Shown: in pieces, positions 27,180 through 33,199 of the stretch
Numbering within the stretch: position 1 is the first letter of the stretch
How the letters are laid out: each line of letters begins with the position of its first letter
Source: Methanosarcina horonobensis HB-1 = JCM 15518
Lineage (GTDB): Archaea > Halobacteriota > Methanosarcinia > Methanosarcinales > Methanosarcinaceae
Length of the DNA: 64,000 nt
Assembly: GCF_000970285.1 (NCBI RefSeq)
Contig: NZ_CP009516.1
Span: 2,211,036-2,275,035, forward strand
Direction of reading: 5' to 3'
The notes under the pieces: model-generated
The model's database searches: none
Told to the model about the DNA's origin: nothing
What the model saw: the letters and a program-made list of their open reading frames with translations, nothing else
Program-made: the position numbers and the translations under genes

Positions 27180-27929
27180 TTACTTTCCTTTTCCAGAAGT
27201 CCCGGTTTCAGGTTCTTCTTCCTCTGCCTCTTCTTCGAAGAATTCTTCTTCCGTGAACTCTTCGTTGGGTCTGCTGCCTCCATAGCCTGCAGGCTGAAGG
27301 TTCTGCATGTCTGAGAATTCGCTTAACGTCTGGGAGATAAGCTGGGGGTATTTAACAATTTGTTCCCTGGGAATGAATCCATTGTCTTCAGAGAGCTTTA
27401 TAATACTTTCCCTGGCAGCTTTTGCTGCGCTGCTAAGCTCATCAAGTTGTTTTTTGCCTGCAAGATAGCCGATCTCTTCAAGTGACATTGTTGTCCAGAG
27501 GGTTACGACCTCCATCCTTTTTTCAACAGCTCCTCGCCCTATCACTTCGAGGGTGTTAACAGCTTTTTCTGCAGTTTCGGGCATGTCAGCCTGTGAGGCT
27601 CCCTTTCCAATTTCCTGTACAGCTTTTGAGAAAGACCAGAGGGCATTAGAGTAGCCTTTTTCTATGGAAGGACTTGCAAGTGTATCAACGGCTTCTACCG
27701 CACCAGACGCAACGTTTCCAATCCGTTTCTGAACAGCTTTGTTGCCGATATTTCGGAGTGAAATGGCAATTCTTTTTAAATCGGTCTCAAAATCTGCGTT
27801 GAGTAGTTCTTCCCCTAGTTCTCGAAGGTACTCTATATACTGAAGGGCATCATATTCGTTTTGTTCCCTTACCGCTCTTTCTCCAGATTCGCCAAGTTCA
27901 ATAGCTTTTTGTTCGTTCAGTGAAAACAT
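27180..27929 (-). CDS. Helical-repeat paralogue 1 of 5, with an acidic tail
   Basis: 249 residues; start 'MFSLNEQKAIELGESGERAV' matches the N-terminal cap of the other four paralogues ('NE..A...G...V'). Units ending in '(I/L)G..A' recur about every 36 residues: 'LRNIGNKAV', 'VQEIGKGAS', 'LEVIGRGAV', 'LEEIGYLAG'. The last 30 residues are almost all Glu with a basic end, absent from the others. GGGGT precedes the ATG; a TATA box (CTATATAAATAG on this strand) lies near 27990. Predicted cytoplasmic, HEAT-like scaffold; function unknown. Confidence 0.82.
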   Translation of the reverse strand: MFSLNEQKAIELGESGERAVREQNEYDALQYIEYLRELGEELLNADFETDLKRIAISLRNIGNKAVQKRIGNVASGAVEAVDTLASPSIEKGYSNALWSFSKAVQEIGKGASQADMPETAEKAVNTLEVIGRGAVEKRMEVVTLWTTMSLEEIGYLAGKKQLDELSSAAKAARESIIKLSEDNGFIPREQIVKYPQLISQTLSEFSDMQNLQPAGYGGSRPNEEFTEEEFFEEEAEEEEPETGTSGKGK

Positions 27930-28442
27930 ATTTAAACCCCTTTCCAGTCAAATCCTGTAAAAAATGCTCGATTTAAGAATTTAACTATTTATATAGGAAT
28001 ACCCTGATATTAGTCTTCCTATATTTTTGGAAATTTGTAAAGAGTTTTAAACTTTTATATCACGATTTCACATCGTCATGAATTTTTATAAATAAAATTT
28101 ATATTCTTCTGACTGAAAAGATTTCGAAATAATTAATCAAAACAGTCAAACATTGTTATTAAAGGAAAAGAGTTAAATACATTTCCTATATAATATATAT
28201 CATATGAATATAAACTTCTGCGGGTTTCTGGCATATTTACCCGTATGAATACCAACAACACACCTCCATGGAAAGGGAAAGGGTTTACTCCTTACCTTTC
28301 CCCTTCCAGCATAAACCTTTTTAATATTTCTTAAAGAACGATATCTGGACAGATATTAAAAAGGAATAAGCATCTATCGGATTCAACTTGATAAAGAGCG
28401 ATAGATAGTTGTTTTTATACCCTGACAGCTTTTCTAATGCAG
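27930..28442. other. Intergenic region with a long GA/CT hairpin
   Basis: GGAAAGGGAAAGG at 28270-28282 pairs with CCTTTCCCCTTCC at 28295-28307 (one mismatch, 12-base loop). Reading the reverse strand, it lies about 135 bases past the stop of paralogue 2 and 340 bases before paralogue 1, so it may end or process the paralogue-2 message. The rest is AT-rich promoter DNA of paralogue 1. Confidence 0.55.
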
Positions 28443-29042
28443 TTAGAGATCTTCCATCAGTGCAGCTGCATTTATTGCAGCTGTTTCAAGGCCTGCGTCT
28501 GTAGCGCATCTTCCAATGTCTCTGATTAAAGAAAAAAAGTCTTCATTGAAAGTTTCAGACTCATTTCCAAAGTCTTTGCAAAAAATGTGAAGTTCCTTTA
28601 AACAAAACTGGCTTGTAATAGCTTCTTTTTCCATTCCCTGCCTGATAGCTTCTTTTCCGACTTCTTTCATGGAGATAGCTATCAATCTGAGAGAAAAAAG
28701 AGTTTTTATCTCAGCTGTTTTTTCCCCCAGAGCCTTAAGAGCAAAAAGGATATCGAGCACAGCTTCATTTTCTCCATTTCTTGCCGCTTCCTGCCCGATC
28801 AGCCCTAGAGAGGCAGTCGCGTTAAGGACACTCGAGTTCATATTTCCCTCAGCCGCAGCTAGTCCCAGAGATTTTATGCATTCAATTGCTCCATCTGCCG
28901 TTTCTTGCAAGATGGTACCTGAAAAAAACTTTATCCCAACTTCAGCCAGCTCATCTATTATCGCGAGAAGTCGGGTTTCATCTCGAGTCCTGACCGCTTC
29001 AAGTCCGGGCTCAAGCAGAAGGAAATTTTCCGTTAAAATCAA
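28443..29042 (-). CDS. Helical-repeat paralogue 2 of 5 (short form)
   Basis: 199 residues starting at TTG 29042 after a strong GGAGGT. The sequence 'LLEPGLEAVRTRDETRLLAI' aligns to the paralogue cap; then 'LGLAAAEGNM', 'LGLIGQEAARNGE', 'LKALGEKTA', 'MKEVGKEAIRQGME' and 'IRDIGRCATDAGLE' mark about five units. It lacks the last units and C-terminal domain of the 278-295 residue paralogues. The ribosome site lies within a 10-bp inverted repeat at 29046-29094, which may hide it. Confidence 0.8.
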   Translation of the reverse strand: MILTENFLLLEPGLEAVRTRDETRLLAIIDELAEVGIKFFSGTILQETADGAIECIKSLGLAAAEGNMNSSVLNATASLGLIGQEAARNGENEAVLDILFALKALGEKTAEIKTLFSLRLIAISMKEVGKEAIRQGMEKEAITSQFCLKELHIFCKDFGNESETFNEDFFSLIRDIGRCATDAGLETAAINAAALMEDL

Positions 29043-29045
29043 ATT

Positions 29046-29094
29046 TAACCTCCAGTTTCACAGCCATTTTCACAATTTATGAACCTGGAGGTTA
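29046..29094 (-). promoter_or_regulatory. Inverted repeat that can sequester the ribosome site of paralogue 2
   Basis: TAACCTCCAG (29046-29055) and CTGGAGGTTA (29085-29094) are exact reverse complements separated by 29 bases. On the reverse strand the downstream arm contains the GGAGGT that precedes the TTG start of paralogue 2, so pairing would block translation initiation. No ligand-binding domain is recognised in the loop. Confidence 0.5.
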
Positions 29095-29302
29095 TTACTT
29101 TTTCGTATTTCTCCTGTATATACTCATTAACCTAAAAACCGGACGGAAAAAGTTGAAATTGGAAGATAAATATGTTGAAAAATTGGAAGGTAAATATGTT
29201 GAAAAGTATGTTTTGAAACGATATGATATATAAAAAGATTAAAACAAGTATAAAAAATAGGAAAAAAAGCAAAAAAAATGGAATTTTAATGGGCTCTTCG
29301 TG

Positions 29303-30190
29303 TTACAGATTTGAATAAACCTTTCTCTGCAGTTCCTTTATCTCCTGAAGTTTCTCTGTGTTTTCATCGCTTTCTGCGACGTCTGTGAGTTTAAAGCTGT
29401 CAAGTGCCATTTCCGTAACAATGGGAGAATTGGTCAGGGATTTTTCTTCAGCCTGAACTTTTAGTGTTTTAAGAGACCACTGGCTCTGAAGTGCAGCTTC
29501 ACGAAGTCCGTTCTTTAAAGAAATCTTTCCTGTATCTTCAATTGAAAGAGCTATCGAGCTCAGGGCTTCATCAAAGTATTTTTCTGCAGCAATCCTGCCT
29601 GTTTCTTCAAGCAGCAGAAGAGTGCTGATAGTTTCAGTCTCAAGACCTTCGGAGGCTATTTTTTTTCCAACTTCTCCCAGGCAGGTTATTGCGTTGAGCA
29701 AGGCCTCTTCCATATCCTGTGCGGCAGCAGCAGACCCGATATCTCTTAAGAGCAGAGAAAAAGCAACCATTTCCTCCCGATCTTTCTTTTCTGGAGAGGA
29801 AAAGTTCCAGATTTCCATCAGGGTTGTGGCAGCTACTTTTGAACCTGCTTCAAGCGAACTTGAAGCTGCTGCTCTTCCGAGTTTCCCTGTTGCTACCATT
29901 GCCCTGTTCAGAGCTGATTTATATCCTTTTTTTGCGGCTGCTTTTGCCAGTTTCCCGAAGGCAAGGACTGAGTTGATAGTAACAAGTTCCATACCTTCCT
30001 GTGCAGCTGCCTGTGCAATATCCGAAATTGATAGGATAACCCTTGAAGCATCTGCCTCTTCGTTTTCAGATAGGAAACCTTCTGCGATTCCCGTAAGGGA
30101 ATCCAGGGCCTGGAAAACCCTGCTCTCGTTTCGTTCCTCAACTGAGGATAAACCTACGTCAACTGCCTCTGCTTCGTTTAATGTTATCAT
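29303..30190 (-). CDS. Helical-repeat paralogue 3 of 5
   Basis: 295 residues. Cap 'MITLNEAEAVDVGLSSVEE'; repeats 'ISDIAQAAAQEGME', 'FGKLAKAAAKKGYK', 'TGKLGRAAASSSLE', 'LRDIGSAAAAQDME', 'LGEVGKKIASEGLE', 'LEETGRIAAEKYFD' and 'IEDTGKISLKNGLR', about 36 residues apart, each likely a helix pair. A C-terminal region 'EKSLTNSPIVTEMALDSFKL' is shared with paralogues 4 and 5. Strong Ala/Glu/Leu content, no Cys or His cluster and no membrane segment. GGGGAAAAAAG precedes the ATG. Function unknown. Confidence 0.85.
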   Translation of the reverse strand: MITLNEAEAVDVGLSSVEERNESRVFQALDSLTGIAEGFLSENEEADASRVILSISDIAQAAAQEGMELVTINSVLAFGKLAKAAAKKGYKSALNRAMVATGKLGRAAASSSLEAGSKVAATTLMEIWNFSSPEKKDREEMVAFSLLLRDIGSAAAAQDMEEALLNAITCLGEVGKKIASEGLETETISTLLLLEETGRIAAEKYFDEALSSIALSIEDTGKISLKNGLREAALQSQWSLKTLKVQAEEKSLTNSPIVTEMALDSFKLTDVAESDENTEKLQEIKELQRKVYSNL

Positions 30191-30605
30191 TCTTTTTTCC
30201 CCTCTCTATCAGTCTATAGCAATTTAAATTTCAAACTGACTTTTTTGCAAATTTATACAATCATTATGTCTAATTTTTTATGCTATTGTTGCCAGTTTAA
30301 GCGATTATAGAGCATGAAATAATTGGGTGGAATAGAACTGTTACTGGGAAATATTGACTGGACTGCCTGGCTTACTTTATGAAATTAGGAGATTATTAAG
30401 TGTTGCTATTTTGTAATGGAGATTCTATTTATAAAGCTTCTCAGGCTTTGGGCTATCGATGAGCCTGAAAAACTATTTTTTTCATAGAGAAAAAAAACTG
30501 CTTTAAAAGTACAGGAGAACAGGCTTCAGCTGAAAAAAAGGAAACATTGAATTTTATGAAAAATTGAAATTAAGGGTTGTAAGCTCCCTTTTGAGACAAA
30601 TCGAA
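30191..30605. other. Intergenic region between paralogues 3 and 4
   Basis: About 415 AT-rich bases. A TCAGGCT...AGCCTGA inverted repeat (7-bp arms, 14-base loop) at about 30448-30475 lies some 130 bases past the stop of paralogue 4 and could be part of its 3' end. The promoter of paralogue 3 probably uses TTGTATAAATTT near 30250 on the reverse strand. No gene is seen. Confidence 0.4.
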
Positions 30606-31439
30606 TTATTCAAATGATTCAGCTTCGTGGACGTACTCAGAACTATTAAAGGTTTCAATAGAAAGCTTTGTCACAAGCATATAACTTACGAGAAACTTTT
30701 CTTTAGGTTCAAGCATTATCGTTCCAAGTGCATCAGCAGCCTTTATAATGATATTTTCAAAGTTTCTAAAGTCAGTTTCATGAAACTGATATTCAGAAAA
30801 AACAGGTACATGCTGGTAAGAATGGATCTCTCCCCTGTGTTCCATAAGGTGCGTCAGGATGCTCTGGAACTCTTCAGATAAAAGAGGCGCCTCCATGCCC
30901 TGGGTAGATAAGAACATGCCTGAACCGGGAGAAAAAAGTCCTCCGTTCTCCGGAACCCTGATGATCTGCTGCCTGGATGTTTCTTTTCCTATAGCTCCTA
31001 TGGCAAGAGAAGAAACAAGAGATTCCCTTTTCAGGTTGTGAAGAGATGCAGAGTTTGCAATCTCTCCAAGATATGCAACTGCAATTCTGACTGCCGCTTC
31101 CATCTCCTGTCCAACTGCGGACCTTCCAACTGCACAGAGAGAGTAAATAATGCTTAAACCGGTGTTAGACATTTTCTGCTCTCTGGCAGCCTCAGCCATC
31201 CTTCCCAGAGAGACCAGGGAGATTAGAACTCCAAGCTCCATTTTTTGAAGAGCAGCGGCATTTCCAATGTCTCTTATGCTGATAATAGTTCTCTTTGCGT
31301 CAGGTTCAAGCCCTTTATTTATATATTTCGTCCCCTGCTCTGTTAGAAAATCTATGGATTTTAACACACCCAGTTCATTATTATCTTTGACAGAGCTCAA
31401 GCCAAGGTCTATTGCCCCGGTTTCATTTAAAATAGACAT
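30606..31439 (-). CDS. Helical-repeat paralogue 4 of 5
   Basis: 277 residues from ATG 31439, preceded by GGGGTG six bases away; the frame is open to 31508 but the extra 23 residues have no match in the family. Cap 'MSILNETGAIDLGLSSVKD'; units 'IRDIGNAAALQKME', 'LGRMAEAAREQKMS', 'LCAVGRSAVGQEME', 'LGEIANSASLHNLK' and 'IGAIGKETSRQQ'. The later half replaces repeats by a Gly/Ser/His-rich linker ('NGGLFSPGSGMFLSTQGME') before the shared C-terminal domain. Function unknown. Confidence 0.83.
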   Translation of the reverse strand: MSILNETGAIDLGLSSVKDNNELGVLKSIDFLTEQGTKYINKGLEPDAKRTIISIRDIGNAAALQKMELGVLISLVSLGRMAEAAREQKMSNTGLSIIYSLCAVGRSAVGQEMEAAVRIAVAYLGEIANSASLHNLKRESLVSSLAIGAIGKETSRQQIIRVPENGGLFSPGSGMFLSTQGMEAPLLSEEFQSILTHLMEHRGEIHSYQHVPVFSEYQFHETDFRNFENIIIKAADALGTIMLEPKEKFLVSYMLVTKLSIETFNSSEYVHEAESFE

Positions 31440-31605
31440 TCGGAACACCCCATTTAGATTCTTTACTTCCAGAAAGGTGATCTCGACATGAGATAGCCTT
31501 ACCGGCACTCAAACCTCTTCGTTATAATACAATTAGTTTTTATGTAATTCAGGCGCTCGTATGAGTTTTGCCTGGACTGCTTCATTCAAAACCCAAAAGA
31601 GTTTT

Positions 31606-32481
31606 TCAATCAATATAAGTAAACTTTCTTTTTCCTCTAAAATTTTTATTTAGCTTTTCTTCCAGTTTCTCGAGGCCTGCACTGTCAAAACGCATGAGAG
31701 CTATTTCGGCTATGATGGATGCACTCACAAGATAGCGATCTTCCGCATCAAATTTGATTACCTCAAGGGAATAAACTGCCTGAAGTAGTGCCCTTTCAAG
31801 TCCCTGCCTATCGGCAGCCCTTCCAATATCCCCGAGTAAACGGGCACTGGTATCAGCAGTTTCTTTCAGGTTCTTTTCAATTGCTCCTGTTCCTATTTCC
31901 TGTAACAGAAGTTCAGCGTTTAACGTTGCATCTTCAAAGTTCTGGTTTGCGGCTACTTTCCCTGTTTCCCCGAGTAAAGCTACCGTACTGTTTGCAACCT
32001 CCCCCAGGCTCTGTTTTGTAAGGCTTTTTCCAATCTCCCCAAGAGCGAAAATGACTGCTATTATTTCTTTTCGGGTTTTTGTGAAGGCTGCAGTATTTCC
32101 CATCTCTCCCAGACAGGAAGCTGCAGTTTTTGCCGGGACTTCCATTCTTTGCCCTGCTGCTGTCTTTCCGATTTCACCAAGGGCGAGAGCGATACTCACA
32201 AGAGCATTTTCCAGCCCGCGTCTGCAAGCTTCTTTTGCAGCAGGGGTAAAAAGCAGAATGGCATTTGTAACAACCATCTCCTGCCCTGAGAGAGCCGATG
32301 CTGTTCCTATCTCTTTCATGTATTCAATTAATCTTTTAGTATCGCCTTCCAGTCCTTCGTTTGCGTATCTCACTGCAAGTCCTGATAGGTAGTAAAGGAT
32401 CTCAATTACACTGGCTTCGTCCTTCTCATCTACTAAAGCCAGCCCTATCTCTAACGCCTCGTTTTCATCAAGCGGTAGAAT
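31606..32481 (-). CDS. Helical-repeat paralogue 5 of 5, with an irregular start
   Basis: The shared cap is present in frame ('LDENEALEIGLALVDEKDEA') but no ATG, GTG or TTG precedes it; the frame opens after a TGA with ATT at 32481, eight bases after GGGGG, giving 291 residues like paralogue 3. An ATG at 32488 is in another frame and stops after six codons. The first standard start inside is GTG 32373, which would delete the cap. Units include 'LGEIGKTAAGQRME', 'LGEMGNTAAFTKTR', 'LGETGKVAANQNFE', 'LQEIGTGAIEKNLK' and 'LGDIGRAADRQGLE'. Either ATT is used or the gene has a frameshift. Confidence 0.75.
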   Translation of the reverse strand: MLPLDENEALEIGLALVDEKDEASVIEILYYLSGLAVRYANEGLEGDTKRLIEYMKEIGTASALSGQEMVVTNAILLFTPAAKEACRRGLENALVSIALALGEIGKTAAGQRMEVPAKTAASCLGEMGNTAAFTKTRKEIIAVIFALGEIGKSLTKQSLGEVANSTVALLGETGKVAANQNFEDATLNAELLLQEIGTGAIEKNLKETADTSARLLGDIGRAADRQGLERALLQAVYSLEVIKFDAEDRYLVSASIIAEIALMRFDSAGLEKLEEKLNKNFRGKRKFTYID

Positions 32482-32967
32482 CCTTCATGCCCCCAGATTC
32501 TCTCTTAATTAAGTATGGATATGTGAGGATATTAGCTTTGTCATAAAGGAGATAAGAAAGGCATCGAAAAATTCTGCTATTTTCCTTTAAGGAAAGAAAT
32601 AAATTGCTTAATCCTGCTGAATATTAGTAAGTATGTATCAGAATGGGCAAATCGTTCAGAACCAAAAATTATAAATAGAATTATACGGTAGTAAGATACC
32701 GGTTGCTTACGAGAAAATCAAAGCCTCATTTCACACACACACGAGAATCGAAACGATTACTCTAGAAGGATAGGTTTCATCCCTTCTTCCTGTCCGTTCC
32801 TAACGTTGGCTCGTGAGCAACTACCCTCTCCATCTTTTCTTCAAGACTTCTCAAGGTCTGAGGCTTCAACTTGCGTTCACTTTTAACCCTGCTGCATTTC
32901 GTAGATATGCCACTCCTGCAGGCATGAGCAAATTACCAAATTAACCTGGAGCTCTGCCCACAAATTA
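32482..32967. other. Intergenic region before the hairpin array
   Basis: About 490 bases. It holds the promoter of paralogue 5 (AT-rich, reverse strand) and, from 32700, DNA of higher G+C than its surroundings, with 'ACACACACACG' and 'CGAGAATCGAAACGATTAC'. 'GTTGCTTACGAG' at 32702 and 'GGCTCGTGAGCAAC' at 32809 can pair over a long distance (TTGCTTACGAG with CTCGTGAGCAA). Together with the array below this may belong to one structured RNA. Confidence 0.35.
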
Positions 32968-33117
32968 GTCCTCTTGAGCGCAGCGAAAAGGACATCGAAC
33001 TGTTGCGACCATATCGCAACTCCCAGAAAATCTATGATTTTCTGTGATCCCGAAACGAAACTCGGGAAGGACAGCACACTGCAGAGCCGCAACTCTGCTG
33101 GCGAAGCATTTACATGC
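32968..33117. repeat. Array of six consecutive short hairpins
   Basis: In 150 bases: GTCCTCTT/AAAAGGAC (32968-32993), GTTGCGA/TCGCAAC (33002-33020), CAGAAAATC/GATTTTCTG (33024-33044), CCCGA/TCGGG (33049-33066), GCAGAG/CTCTGC (33081-33098) and GCAT/ATGC (33106-33117). The second, third, fourth, fifth and sixth are perfect; loops are 3-10 bases and spacers are 3-14 bases. It ends about 80 bases before the cyclophilin gene. It could be a structured noncoding RNA, a long 5' leader, or a cluster of palindromic repeat elements. Confidence 0.65.
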
Positions 33118-33199
33118 AAGGCGAGCATAAAGTGCACAAAAGCCGACAAAAAGACAGGCACACATAGAAATTAGATTAAAAGACGAAAGAGGAACAGAA

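Follow-up and report, generated by a model that had tools for sequence, protein, structure and literature searches.

A family of 23-residue-repeat proteins in Methanosarcina related to the cytoplasmic domain of DUF2254-type membrane proteins

Five neighbouring genes of the window (the whole stretch of 64,000 nucleotides of the Methanosarcina horonobensis genome that was analysed), together with two genes elsewhere in the genome, encode a genuine, conserved and so far undescribed protein family, P1 to P7. It belongs to a known structural class, the alpha-solenoids, and has an unusual unit, a 23-residue repeat. Halobacteriota have DUF2254-type membrane proteins whose entire cytoplasmic domain is homologous to the soluble family, and all seven family members are under purifying selection. 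On balance, we favour the reading that the paralogues of this soluble solenoid family, related to the DUF2254 cytoplasmic domain, are non-enzymatic adaptors, each with its own protein partner.

Genes and repeat unit

The five genes are located on the reverse strand between trpG on one side and sRNA154 and a cyclophilin gene on the other, separated by gaps of about 120–510 bp. P1 (positions 27180–27929, 249 amino acids) consists of a 23-residue-repeat solenoid and an acidic tail, and P2 (28443–29042, 199 amino acids) is a short member with a TTG start; both are supported by their open reading frames and by clades with 100/100 support, P2 also by gene order. P3 (29303–30190, 295 amino acids) is an open reading frame modelled with 13 helices. 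P4 (30606–31439, 277 amino acids, read from the ATG at 31439) contains a Gly/Ser/His-rich insert that replaces the later repeats, and P5 (31606–32481, 291 amino acids) was delimited by comparison with its orthologues, starting at a conserved ATT codon. The initial annotation had described five reverse-strand paralogues with a common N-terminal cap (NE..A...GL..V), a C-terminal segment shared by three of them and differing tails. The open reading frames agree with its coordinates, the cap is present in all five proteins, the shared C-terminal segment is that of P3, P4 and P5, and the differences are the acidic tail of P1 and the insert of P4. The complete genome (5.02 Mb) contains two further members, P6 (at 2521559) and P7 (at 3549504), and the seven proteins can be aligned along their whole length. 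All are acidic (pI 4.5–5.2), which argues against nucleic-acid binding, although a role with nucleic acids or small ligands is still conceivable. The acidic tail of P1 (27180–27270), which is probably flexible, contains a linear motif, NLQPAGY..PNEEFTEEEFFEEE, kept in 8 genomes, and this motif is a candidate for a second binding element.

In each of the seven proteins, self-alignment autocorrelation scored against 200 shuffles has its maxima at 23 and 46 residues (z reaches 9.2 and lies at 4.6–8.2 for 23 residues), and most of them show an additional peak at 69 residues. The 36-residue unit proposed in the initial annotation was rejected, as the autocorrelation at 36 residues is at or below chance in P1 to P7 (z between −2.9 and +1.0). 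In most members the signal at 23 residues is about as strong as that at 46, so adjacent antiparallel helices have equivalent sequences, unlike the helix pairs of HEAT and TPR proteins. An iterated position matrix identifies 54 units in P1 to P7, with the consensus QGMEEAAxxAIxSLGEIGKAAAE. The AlphaFold2 model of P3, calculated with 66 family sequences as input, has a mean pLDDT of 94 and a pTM of 0.91. It contains 13 helices, mostly of 20 residues and connected by 3-residue turns, with one helix for each 23-residue repeat. The predicted structure is thus an alpha-solenoid of tandemly stacked antiparallel helices with short turns, the solenoid fold that the initial annotation had named as support for its reading. 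In structure comparison with Foldseek, the best matches were designed proteins with circular tandem or helical repeats (PDB entry 7rdr and the DHR series), chain 7rdr_A being first with a query TM-score of only 0.53; these proteins are synthetic, and the matches neither imply an evolutionary relation nor carry functional information. A natural one-helix repeat would be of use for studies of solenoid evolution and for protein design.

P1 to P7 stay below the cut-off of every Pfam and NCBIfam model and no convincing sequence match to the family was found among PDB chains, in agreement with the earlier suggestion of an undescribed family: the repeat is missing from these three resources, and it is present in every Methanosarcina genome searched. 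The anti-phage defence profiles of PADLOC do not match P1 to P7. A mobile or viral origin was rejected, since P1 to P7 have no match in PHROGs and P3 has none in phage and plasmid collections.

Conservation and the upstream regions of P5 and P1

Members of the family are present in all of the 31 genomes of the genus that were searched, typically with 7 or 8 matches per near-complete genome (where a match may cover only part of a gene), and strong matches also come from two sister genera. In a maximum-likelihood tree of 66 proteins, in which P7 is represented by one row only, P1 to P6 form clades with 100/100 or 100/99 support. Sister-genus members lie inside each of these six clades, so those duplications predate the genus; judging from the sequences, the orthologue groups already existed when Methanosarcina separated from its two sister genera. 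Between this genome and G001, dN/dS ratios are 0.09–0.23 for all seven members (0.09 for P1, 0.21 for P2). The genome census and the comparison of neighbourhoods also support the idea of lineage-restricted paralogues with conserved gene order.

P5 has no ATG, GTG or TTG start that preserves its conserved N-terminus, and the first canonical start would remove 36 residues. Orthologues point to a conserved ATT (32481–32479), located after GGGGG, as the start, which fits the end coordinate of 32481 given in the initial annotation. An in-frame TGA lies just upstream, in most species a stop is found two codons upstream, and in L053 (genome G029) the start codon at about the same place is GTG. Translation of P5 therefore appears to start at a non-AUG (AUU) codon, and such unusual initiation could be put to the test here in an archaeon that is genetically tractable. 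An explanation by a frameshift or by a sequencing error was rejected because the ATT and the upstream stop recur in many species, and a short open reading frame overlapping P5 (MKDSTA) was discarded as not conserved. At the start position of P4, three other species (L046, L053 and L037) have ACG with a stop directly before it.

The P5 leader (32482–32545, reverse strand), delimited by orthologue identity, contains the motif AAAGCTAATATCCTCAC, which is unique in the genome, and the GGGGG. Its identity to orthologues is 78–91% in the region from −1 to −75, compared to about 44–53% further upstream. An RNA hairpin in the leader was rejected, as the consensus energy is only −2.9 kcal/mol. Upstream of P1 there is another conserved block (27986–28017, reverse strand), made up of a ATATAGGAAG.CTAATATC core followed by TATATAAA; it is unique in the genome and nearly invariant in 9 genomes, including the sister genus. 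The P1 element and the P5 leader have CTAATATC in common, which is not a clear genome-wide motif, and a regulon sharing it was rejected (8 genome matches versus 5 for the reversed control).

Divergent from P5 lies the gene for sRNA154, a small RNA known to be regulated by nitrogen (32700–32833, forward strand; Rfam RF02906, 156.9 bits against a cut-off of 88), and between the two there is an exact NrpR-type operator, CGGTA-N6-TACCG (32686–32701). Allowing up to one mismatch, the operator has 2 matches in the window versus 0.26 expected, and the exact form is retained in 7 of 12 clusters. sRNA154 is found beside P5 in five other clusters (L045, L046, L048, L051 and L054), one of them in a sister genus. 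In Methanosarcina mazei, sRNA154 is located between MM3337 and MM3338, and the flanking proteins were called only conserved and hypothetical (PMC3177094); sRNA154 has been described as the central small RNA of nitrogen metabolism (PMC11549558). The arrangement here resembles the M. mazei locus in combining small RNA and operator, both of which adjoin P5, and the literature found describes no role for the flanking proteins. P5, and with it P4, could take part in the response to nitrogen limitation through a regulatory region shared with sRNA154, controlled by NrpR or at the level of translation via the leader and AUU start. The divergent arrangement around an exact operator, retained in several species and the sister genus, and the conserved leader and start codon of P5 are in line with this. 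However, the operator touches the start of sRNA154, about 205–220 bp away from P5, and may serve only the small RNA; P5 persists where the operator has been lost (G007 and G029), and the other six members do not have such a neighbour. We consider a role in nitrogen limitation rather unlikely, and the region common to P5 and sRNA154 is a testable case of possible nitrogen control. Between sRNA154 and the cyclophilin gene, a segment (32883–33161) stands out from the neighbouring sequence by its higher G+C content and is possibly a decayed element.

Relation to DUF2254-type membrane proteins

A phylum-wide search revealed the repeat in longer proteins, most of their open frames encoding about 350–680 residues. 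Most of the long relatives read have an N-terminal DUF2254 membrane domain (PF10011, above the cut-off), and the membrane relatives contain about four transmembrane segments. When 84,980 species were scanned by pattern, only archaeal records came back, from ANME-1/Methanophagales, Methanoperedens, Methanolobus, Methanococcoides, Methanothrix, Methanoregula and Methanocalculus. DUF2254 proteins with C-terminal repeats occur in the first six of these groups. When the profile of the soluble family is aligned with the entire post-membrane part of the relatives using hhalign, the probability is 99.8 with an E-value of 1e-27 over 273 columns, so that the homology extends over the full cytoplasmic repeat domain and links the soluble proteins to a membrane family found in methanogens and in anaerobic methane oxidisers. 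In the model of L065 (pLDDT 85), the 23-residue helical period continues after the membrane helices. The DUF2254 proteins and the soluble family thus share, end to end, a domain with the same period, and they differ in the N-terminal membrane domain, which is absent from P1 to P5. No 19-residue window of P1 to P7 exceeds 1.6 on the Kyte-Doolittle scale, hence no transmembrane segment is present, and a DUF2254 match is found neither in these proteins nor in the whole genome. As the relatives have the same repeat domain fused to DUF2254, P1 to P5 look like soluble forms of the cytoplasmic domain. In the simplest history, the Methanosarcina lineage would have kept or duplicated this domain without its membrane anchor. 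The genes next to the membrane relatives vary between lineages; a conserved neighbour was rejected, as no gene is common to all lineages. Three other proteins (L076:6954–8549, L079:3200–4909 and L077:2567–4306) combine the repeats with another multi-pass membrane domain, one that no Pfam model matches, and this second membrane type occurs in genus g7.

The soluble proteins might be regulatory subunits or decoys that dimerise with the cytoplasmic solenoid of membrane DUF2254 proteins and modulate it, considering that the homology spans the whole cytoplasmic domain and that membrane versions with such repeats exist in some Methanosarcina (837 amino acids in G007, 611 in G020). Yet this genome and G001, without a DUF2254 match, keep all seven soluble members, which makes such a role quite unlikely.

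HEAT and PBS-lyase HEAT-like repeats are also alpha-solenoids of short helices, with weak similarity to the family around LGxIGxxA, and one remote membrane-bound relative (L081, 35.7 bits) passes the HEAT_PBS cut-off. To this extent the term HEAT-like, used in the initial annotation, holds loosely; P1 to P7 all stay below every HEAT cut-off (PF03130, PF13646). The best score is the weak match of P5 (15.1 versus 20.9 bits), the sole one reported among the seven. HEAT units are pairs of helices, with a two-helix unit of about 30–47 residues, whereas here each unit has a single helix and the period is 23 residues. In spite of the P5 and L081 matches, it is very unlikely that P1 to P5 are ordinary HEAT or PBS-lyase HEAT repeat proteins.

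The adaptor reading is moderately supported by the combination of the 23-residue period in all seven proteins, the predicted one-helix model and the homology to membrane relatives. The low dN/dS ratios, the old orthologue groups, the stable separate loci and the P1 tail motif also count in its favour. Alpha-solenoids usually bind proteins or peptides. Along the face of the solenoid, each paralogue probably binds a partner protein of its own, non-enzymatically, and the number of repeats, the insert of P4 and the acidic tail of P1 would set the specificity for the partner. A wider proposal is that the archaea have an uncatalogued class of one-helix 23-residue-repeat adaptors, both anchored and free, of which the seven free Methanosarcina paralogues have dedicated partners and P5, beside sRNA154, is translated from an AUU start under leader control; as a whole, we regard this as doubtful.

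Gene order and the tryptophan neighbourhood

In the gene order across the genomes read, no neighbour gene is common to the whole family, and no universal partner emerges when soluble and membrane relatives are considered together. P5 and P4 stand in tandem in all clusters read, with P4 always directly downstream of P5. In several species, P2 was not found within the cluster. P1, P6 and P7 retain their own separate loci in most genomes examined. P6 keeps a DUF711 neighbour in most genomes, often together with an ACT gene. P7 keeps an HTH-LSM group, and in most, not all, species a TrpP-like ECF transporter is located beside it. The initial annotation had proposed alternative scaffolds with separate expression; the loci of P1, P6 and P7 make this plausible, P5-P4 is the only constant tandem, and the genes are probably mostly expressed separately with the exception of this pair.

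A functional tie of the family to tryptophan is attractive in this genome, where the cluster lies next to the trp operon, P7 has a TrpP-type ECF transporter facing it and P6 is near a gene for PRA isomerase. In most genomes P1 and trpG converge, also where P3 to P5 have moved away. The tie is highly improbable and the linkage was rejected: the TrpP and PRA isomerase neighbours are not kept across species (P7 is without TrpP in G003 and G029, and PRA isomerase is absent near P6 in every other region examined), so the association is weak, P1 is away from trp in G007, P3 to P5 are elsewhere in several species, and P1 and trpG are convergent, not co-transcribed. The S component of the ECF transporter facing P7 (L010:6539–7072) resembles TrpP, its score of 26.5 bits falling slightly short of the cut-off (27.2).
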